A stretch of DNA of 39,394 bases, taken from NCBI GenBank assembly GCA_913051775.1, contig CAJXCL010000014.1, positions 1-39,394 on the forward strand. The letters run 5' to 3'. This DNA is from an uncultured Nitrospirota bacterium. GTDB lineage: Bacteria; Nitrospinota; Nitrospinia; CAJXCL01. A program made the translations under genes and the position numbers. Every line of letters begins with the position of its first letter. Position 1 is the stretch's first letter. The notes beneath the pieces were generated by a model. It made no database searches. It saw only the letters and a list, made by a program, of their open reading frames with translations, and was not told the origin of the DNA. Positions 11,774 to 13,840 of the stretch are shown one piece after another.

Positions 11774-11905
11774 TATGCGGCGCGATTTTTTTCTTTTTTA
11801 GTTTTATATCTGGCTTAACGTATCCCGCTCATTTTTTATTTCGGTAAAAATACCGATTTTTTTGAATTGCTTTTTAAACGCTTTAAAACAATTTCGAACG
11901 ACCAT
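11774..11905 (-). pseudogene. rpsU: Decayed rpsU (ribosomal protein S21) remnant upstream of dnaG
   Basis: On the minus strand an ATG at 11905, with AGGG four bases before it, opens 33 codons containing FKAFKKQFKKIGIFTEIK. This closely follows the S21 pattern F..A...FKK..EK.GI..E.K.RE. The frame then hits TAA at 11804 and again at 11798, yet the same frame goes on with KRKKSRR, the basic tail expected of S21. The amino-terminal NES/NEP segment also looks shortened. The position, just before dnaG and rpoD, is where rpsU normally sits. It is therefore best read as an rpsU that has lost its carboxy half, though a truncated 33-residue product could still be made. Confidence 0.6.
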
Positions 11906-12202
11906 TTTCCCTTGCCTTAAATGAGGGATAAAAAATAATTCCCCCTCAAAGCAATTATTTATGACTGCTCTAAGAAGCTGTTTTTATTTATCTAATAAGA
12001 ATTTATGGTGCAAATGGTGTAAGAAGAAGTTTTTAATATGAATGATGTTTAACTCTTAATACTATTAAATCATCTGAAAAATGTCAAGAATTTTAATTTA
12101 AAATTTATAATTATTTACTCAATTATGTTCATTTTAATGGCACCTATTTTATCAAAAACTTATGATTGGTTTTTATCGTCATAGGCAGATACGTAGGATG
12201 AA
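11906..12202. other. Leader and promoter region of the dnaG-rpoD operon; otherwise no gene
   Basis: This spacer contains the minus-strand promoter at 12059-12087 and its untranslated leader. No conserved protein is visible on either strand between the rpsU remnant and the small open frame at 12203. Confidence 0.5.
12059..12087 (-). promoter_or_regulatory. Sigma-70 promoter of the (rpsU)-dnaG-rpoD operon
   Basis: On the minus strand: a perfect -35 TTGACA, a 17-base spacer and -10 TAGTAT. Transcription would start near 12052, about 150 bases before the rpsU remnant and 330 before dnaG. It is the closest match to consensus in the window. Confidence 0.7.
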
Positions 12203-12331: not shown

Positions 12332-12530
12332 TTCCAAAGATAATCAAAATTATGAAGAAAAGGACACGTTTTAACATTTAAAGCTCCCTATTATTTTATA
12401 CGGCATGTTAGTAATGGACTTTAATGCTAAACTTGTGCAAAAAAAACAAAACGATAAAGTCAATAAACATAATAAGATAATAAATTTAAAAATAAATTGT
12501 ATTTCCTGGTTTCATATGCCTCAATTATTC

Positions 12531-12559
12531 TTGACTCTTTTCCTGATCTTGCCTACACT
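12531..12559 (+). promoter_or_regulatory. Sigma-70 promoter directly before thiC
   Basis: TTGACT, a 17-base spacer and TACACT. The -10 ends six bases before the thiC ATG at 12566, so transcription is expected to begin on or next to the start codon. No THI-box (thiamin pyrophosphate riboswitch) is seen between this promoter and the gene; there is no space for one. Confidence 0.5.
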
Positions 12560-12565
12560 CAATTT

Positions 12566-13840
12566 ATGAGTACACAATTAGCAATCGCGAAAGCCGGTAA
12601 AATTTCTTCTGAAATGAAAGAAGTAGCGGAGTCTGAAAAAACTACTCCGGAATCAATAAGAGAAAAAATTTCCGAAGGAAAAGTTGTTATAACAAAAAAC
12701 ATCCAACATGAGATAAAACCCCTCGGAGTAGGAGCAGGTTTACGAACCAAGGTCAATGCCAATATTGGTTCTTCCATGGATGACGCCAGTCTTCAAAAGG
12801 AATTGGAAAAGTTGGATGTGGCTGTTAGAGCTGGGGCTGATGCCATAATGGATTTAAGTACTGGCGGAAATATTAACGCGATTAGAAAGGCAATTATAAA
12901 AAAATCAAAGGTACCTGTTGGAACCGTTCCTATTTATCAAATTGCCTGTGAGAATATTATAAACAAGCGCTCCCTTATGGAAATGACAGGCGAAGATATG
13001 TTTGAAATAATTGAGCAGCACGGTAGGGAAGGGGTAGATTTTATTACCGTCCATTGCGGAGTTATTCAAGAATCAGTAAAGCGTTTGGATGATGAAGGAA
13101 GGCTGCTGAATATAGTTAGCCGTGGTGGTTCGATGTTGGCTAAATGGATGAAATATCATAAAGAAGAAAACCCTCTCTATGTCCAATTCGATAGGCTGCT
13201 GGAAATAGCAAGGGAATGTGATATGACCCTGAGTTTAGGTGACGGCCTCCGTCCTGGCTGCCTTTCGGATGCAACAGATCGGGCCCAGGTTCAGGAGACG
13301 ATTATTTTAGGCGAATTGGCACAGAGGGCAAAAAAGGCGGACGTTCAGGTGATGATTGAAGGTCCGGGGCATATGCCGATGGATCAGATTGCCGCGAATA
13401 TTGTTTTGCAAAAAAGGCTGTGCCACGATGCCCCGTTTTATGTGCTGGGACCACTTGTGACGGATATTGCTCCGGGTTATGACCACATTACATCCGCAAT
13501 TGGTGGAGCAATCGCGGCTATGGCAGGAGCGGATTTTTTGTGCTATGTAACCCCTTCAGAACACCTCCGACTCCCTGAGCTGAATGATATTAAAGAGGGT
13601 GTCATAGCAGCAAAGATTGCCGCACATGCCGCTGATATTGCTATAGGGATTCCCGGCGCGATAAAAAAGGATAATTATATGGCTGAAATGAGAAAAAAGC
13701 TTGATTGGGAAAAACAGTTTTCTACGGCACTTGATCCGGAAAAAGCGAAGATGTTGAAAAAATCCAAACAGACATCGGAGGATGACACATGCACGATGTG
13801 CGCATCACTTTGTTCCATAAAAATTGGGAATGAGTTGTGA
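12566..13840 (+). CDS. thiC: Phosphomethylpyrimidine synthase (HMP-P synthase)
   Basis: A radical SAM enzyme converting aminoimidazole ribotide into hydroxymethylpyrimidine phosphate, the pyrimidine half of thiamin. The start at 12566 gives the typical beginning MSTQLAIAKAGKISSEM; the longer open frame from a TTG at 12497 adds unrelated residues. At 424 residues it is the short form. Conserved blocks include TKVNANIGSS, DLSTGGNI, VPIYQ, DFITVHCGV, SRGGSM, LSLGDGLRPGC, EGPGHMPMDQ and LGPLVTDIAPGYDHI. The carboxy end carries the cluster cysteines 409, 412 and 416 (CTMCASLC). Its stop overlaps the thiS start by four bases (GTGA), indicating translational coupling. Confidence 0.97.
   Translation: MSTQLAIAKAGKISSEMKEVAESEKTTPESIREKISEGKVVITKNIQHEIKPLGVGAGLRTKVNANIGSSMDDASLQKELEKLDVAVRAGADAIMDLSTGGNINAIRKAIIKKSKVPVGTVPIYQIACENIINKRSLMEMTGEDMFEIIEQHGREGVDFITVHCGVIQESVKRLDDEGRLLNIVSRGGSMLAKWMKYHKEENPLYVQFDRLLEIARECDMTLSLGDGLRPGCLSDATDRAQVQETIILGELAQRAKKADVQVMIEGPGHMPMDQIAANIVLQKRLCHDAPFYVLGPLVTDIAPGYDHITSAIGGAIAAMAGADFLCYVTPSEHLRLPELNDIKEGVIAAKIAAHAADIAIGIPGAIKKDNYMAEMRKKLDWEKQFSTALDPEKAKMLKKSKQTSEDDTCTMCASLCSIKIGNEL

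Follow-up and report, generated by a model that had tools for sequence, protein, structure and literature searches.

A probable pseudogene of the operon-linked rpsU upstream of dnaG in an uncultured Nitrospinota bacterium that keeps a second, intact S21 gene

Does the short stretch ahead of dnaG in this genome hold what is left of rpsU, and has the cell, if so, lost ribosomal protein S21? The question arises from a contig of 39,394 nucleotides (the window, that is, the whole stretch of DNA analysed here), in which a first-pass annotation had taken a 33-codon ATG frame for a remnant of rpsU. The location, which it had assigned to the macromolecular synthesis operon, is well founded: dnaG and rpoD lie directly downstream of the relic, and in E. 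coli this operon is headed by rpsU (PMC9578407). With the rpsU of an rpsU-dnaG-rpoD operon the relic shares position, orientation and S21 sequence. However, it no longer has a start codon or a continuous reading frame, whereas relatives in the families f4 and f6 keep the gene intact.

From six dnaG-linked rpsU genes (type A) of relatives in the same class a DNA profile was derived. It gave a single significant match in the window, at 11946-11781 on the minus strand (nhmmer, E=1.8e-11; runner-up E=1.4), which covers the Shine-Dalgarno sequence, the start and most of the gene. A frame-tolerant protein-to-DNA alignment recovered 53 S21 positions at 11927-11772 with a score of 105.7, compared to 25.4 +/- 5.8 (maximum 47.8) for 110 other segments of the window and 26.7 +/- 4.7 (maximum 40.6) for 200 Markov resamplings of the region. 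Altogether, the homology extends from 11946, in the Shine-Dalgarno sequence, to 11772. Among 1902 six-frame fragments of the window, the three reading frames of this site took ranks 1, 2 and 3 in a search with the type-A protein profile, and the top matches of the 33 residues in 77 genomes of the class were mostly S21 genes adjacent to dnaG. Together with the synteny of the relatives, these searches bear out that a decayed rpsU occupies the usual position of this gene ahead of dnaG.

The 33-residue frame by itself would be a poor guide. Its S21 likeness is real but weak (PF01165: 14.1 bits, E=0.039, profile positions 14-34; NCBIfam TIGR00030: E=0.053), and comparable weak matches elsewhere in the class turned out to be spurious, as one would expect if the likeness had arisen by chance in a lysine-rich, AT-rich spacer. 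This explanation can be regarded as ruled out by the E-value of the DNA profile, by a frame-tolerant score far above both control maxima and by the presence of four successive S21 pieces in the correct order at the expected genomic position.

Three losses of one base each, all within about 80 bases, separate these four pieces, and no start codon is left (Table 1). The translation reads PSFKAREN!SFEIVLK!FKKQFKKIGIFTEIKNER!YVKPDIKLKKKKIAPHK, where ! stands for a codon with one base missing. With the start changed to TAT and the frame interrupted three times, the element is a pseudogene of the bS21 family and not a working member. Judged by the sequence of one assembly, the whole-gene remnant of the operon rpsU is thus a true pseudogene. 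It can be assigned to type A, as it lies on the same strand as dnaG, about 50 bases upstream of it, and scores 105.7 for type A vs 71.8 for type B. None of the four pieces contains an internal stop codon; therefore, the loss of type-A rpsU may be recent. When two of the pieces were joined in the proper frame, with an X at one break, the PF01165 score rose to 29.6 bits (E=5.5e-7; curated cut-off 27 bits), whereas reading through the two TAA codons behind the 33-codon frame lowered it from 14.1 to 11.1 bits. These TAA codons do exist as had been annotated, but the S21 tail said to follow them in the same frame does not: the true tail, YVKPDIKLKKKKIAPHK, is in another frame, and the resemblance of the same-frame one is to be taken as a coincidence of lysine-rich composition.

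The beginning of the 33-codon frame has a similar explanation. Its ATG at 11905, proposed as the start of rpsU, shares bases with what was the Asn codon of the REN-E motif, well inside a homology that begins at 11946. What had been described as a good Shine-Dalgarno sequence, AAGGCAAGGG, once coded for Lys-Val-Arg; it is GAGGGGGA that corresponds by homology to the true one of the relatives. From the alignment to the relatives' rpsU, ATG and apparent Shine-Dalgarno sequence are therefore former coding sequence (KVRENE motif). This makes it scarcely credible that the frame encodes a working short peptide, be it a mini-S21 or a leader peptide that regulates dnaG, as its ATG behind a purine-rich stretch just upstream of dnaG might suggest. 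Its S21 match is moreover limited to the short part of the profile given above, and the relatives carry the whole gene and no separate frame of such a kind. Programmed -1 frameshifting on the A AAA AAT that precedes the third break was also considered and rejected, since the shifted frame hits a TGA immediately and three breaks would have to be overcome. The case teaches that decay can create an illusory short frame with an apparent Shine-Dalgarno sequence.

Could rpsU be unbroken in the organism, and the breaks be errors of assembly or sequencing? The DNA comes from a draft of 107 contigs (2.05 Mb), and the S21 residues flanking the breaks are well preserved. However, such errors would have to explain both the missing start and three one-base losses crowded into about 80 bases, with no long homopolymer at any of these sites, next to dnaG (593 codons), rpoD (576) and thiC (447), which are without any break. 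The tail of the relic is, in addition, shorter than that of the relatives' S21. We regard this alternative as very improbable and the site as a decayed gene.

Table 1. Features of the rpsU relic and its neighbourhood (positions in the window)
Feature	Position	Strand	Basis
rpoD, intact, 576 codons	8135..9865	-	Pfam
dnaG, intact, TTG start, 593 codons	9937..11718	-	Pfam; alignment with relatives
Pseudogene of dnaG-linked rpsU (type A), lost start codon through stop codon	11769..11930	-	nhmmer and frame-tolerant alignment
Piece 4, YVKPDIKLKKKKIAPHK, then TAA	11772..11822	-	Profile searches and frame-tolerant alignment
33-codon ATG frame MVVRNCFKAFKKQFKKIGIFTEIKNERDTLSQI, then TAA-AAC-TAA; not a gene, ATG inside old coding sequence	11804..11905	-	
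One-base loss 3	11823..11824	-	Frame-tolerant alignment
Piece 3, FKKQFKKIGIFTEIKNER; core of the 33-codon frame	11825..11878	-	Pfam, type-A profile, frame-tolerant alignment
One-base loss 2	11879..11880	-	Frame-tolerant alignment
Piece 2, SFEIVLK (S21: SFENALR)	11881..11901	-	Type-A profile and frame-tolerant alignment
One-base loss 1 (two-base codon)	11902..11903	-	Frame-tolerant alignment
Piece 1, PSFKAREN (S21: PGIKVREN)	11904..11927	-	Frame-tolerant alignment
Former start codon site, now TAT	11928..11930	-	Aligned with ATG/TTG of relatives
Relic of rpsU Shine-Dalgarno sequence, GAGGGGGA, homologous to relatives' GGAAGGGGGGAT	11940..11947	-	DNA profile and leader alignment
Promoter-like site TTGACA-17-TAGTAT, upstream of relic	12059..12087	-	10/12 matches
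thiC, 447 codons, divergent, upstream of relic, unbroken	12497-13840	+	

The loss of S21 itself, which the first-pass annotation had considered, did not occur. A search for a second copy revealed an intact rpsU elsewhere in the same genome (G000:C6:34286-34441; Pfam 64.1 bits, E=2.2e-17). It encodes 61 residues from a TTG, has a cold-shock-like gene upstream and belongs to type B, a second S21 paralogue type that is common in the class (frame-tolerant scores 196.0 for type B vs 113.2 for type A). Because this intact paralogue is present, the S21 protein is not lost; the cell keeps S21, and a new mechanism is unnecessary. We consider it very likely that type-A rpsU decayed after it had become redundant, that type B supplies S21 and that the relic is left in the leader or spacer of dnaG-rpoD. 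The ancestral lineage would have possessed two S21 genes, type A as the first gene of the rpsU-dnaG-rpoD operon and type B at another site. Since either type could presumably supply S21, selection on type A would have lapsed, and type A, deprived of its start codon and of three single bases, would then have ceased to encode S21. To judge from its intact frame, type B should be the working S21 today, and the dead type A would be part of the dnaG-rpoD leader or spacer, depending on a presumed use of promoters.

Among relatives of the same class, an intact rpsU ahead of dnaG is kept in family f4 (G003, G006), where the two genes follow each other directly, and in f6 (G008, G011, G015, G019), where a further gene lies between them; this gene we take to be yqeY-like, judging by its sequence and by what is known of the operon order. 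Two S21 genes are present in most f6 genomes and a single one, linked to dnaG, in those of f4, while in f5, f7 and f8 the S21 copies are located away from dnaG. One f6 genome, G013, shows a different kind of damage: its dnaG-linked rpsU (L117:2999-3130, minus strand) is cut after about 27 codons and fused to the Shine-Dalgarno sequence of the next gene. The short repeat AAAAGG, present in a congener, points to a deletion between repeats. G013 also carries an intact type-B rpsU. As this truncation and the relic in the window are independent, the operon rpsU was put out of action on at least two occasions in the presence of type B, and in both genomes the redundancy provided by type B may have permitted it. 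Four other candidates for decayed S21 genes (G028:C204, G032, G066, G037) gave no S21 signal with lineage profiles and were rejected as chance matches. In G001 (family f2, 90% complete genome) no S21 gene was found at E<=0.01, owing either to missing sequence or to true absence.

The leaders of type-A rpsU (L003-L008, L117) have a very strong Shine-Dalgarno sequence, GGAAGGGGGGAT or GGAAGGAGGGAT. In most of them another GGAGG and a start codon lie about 20-30 bases upstream, and the frame begun there overlaps the rpsU start. These Shine-Dalgarno sequences recall the extended one of the autoregulated rpsU in Flavobacteriales (PMC9976891).

More than one S21 gene per genome is known from other bacteria. 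Francisella has three bS21 genes, all usable by ribosomes, of which one is in the macromolecular synthesis operon with yqeY (PMC9578407). Gain and loss of bS21 paralogues are described as relatively frequent, and the copy number varies between close relatives (PMC9976891). Here, likewise, rpsU copies are redundant; different is that a readable relic remains and that the operon copy died and not a dispersed one. The relic is thus an instance of an already described process, relaxed selection on a redundant bS21 paralogue. Being readable, it documents that the operon rpsU can die where a second S21 paralogue is present.

The remnant had also been tied to leaderless genes in the window. All counts on this point use starts guessed from the longest ORF. 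In about 430 kb of the window genome, 24% of the genes have an SD-like 4-mer at some early start vs 10% mid-gene; in relatives the values, from small samples, are 36-51% vs 11-19%, and the signal of the window genome is the weakest among nine genomes of the class sampled. In 221 ATG-start genes its Shine-Dalgarno motifs form a clear positional peak at -8 to -15; a sharp TATAAT peak does not appear at the leaderless distance (about 10-13 bases before starts). The pattern of a leaderless genome, a -10 element near the starts with weak or no Shine-Dalgarno sequence, was not found. Families f7 and f8, which have only copies away from dnaG, use Shine-Dalgarno sequences at 46-48%; therefore, the poverty in these motifs cannot be put down to the loss of type A alone. 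That the S21 types differ in handling Shine-Dalgarno messages and the switch to B alone helped the lineage to become poor in them appears very improbable. A 16S rRNA, whose 3' end would show whether the anti-Shine-Dalgarno sequence (CCUCC) is changed, was not found in the assembly of the window genome, and a pattern for the 16S 3'-end matched 0 of 40 genomes and is uninformative.

Upstream of the relic, the strong promoter of the first-pass annotation is there as a sequence (Table 1), but promoter-like sites are without clear excess in the region (6 found vs 4.3 +/- 2.4 expected). This site, itself not above chance for the region, may now serve dnaG. A terminator-like hairpin at 11942-11977 on the minus strand, just upstream of the relic, overlaps the old Shine-Dalgarno sequence; it could affect dnaG transcription or be due to chance. 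Between 11700 and 12600, Rfam gave no TPP riboswitch upstream of thiC, even at E<=1. The nearest named DnaG to that of the window genome is about 50% identical and comes from Deltaproteobacteria/Desulfobacterota; for the DnaG of families f5 and f7 the nearest named ones are 53-59% identical and belong to Nitrospinota.
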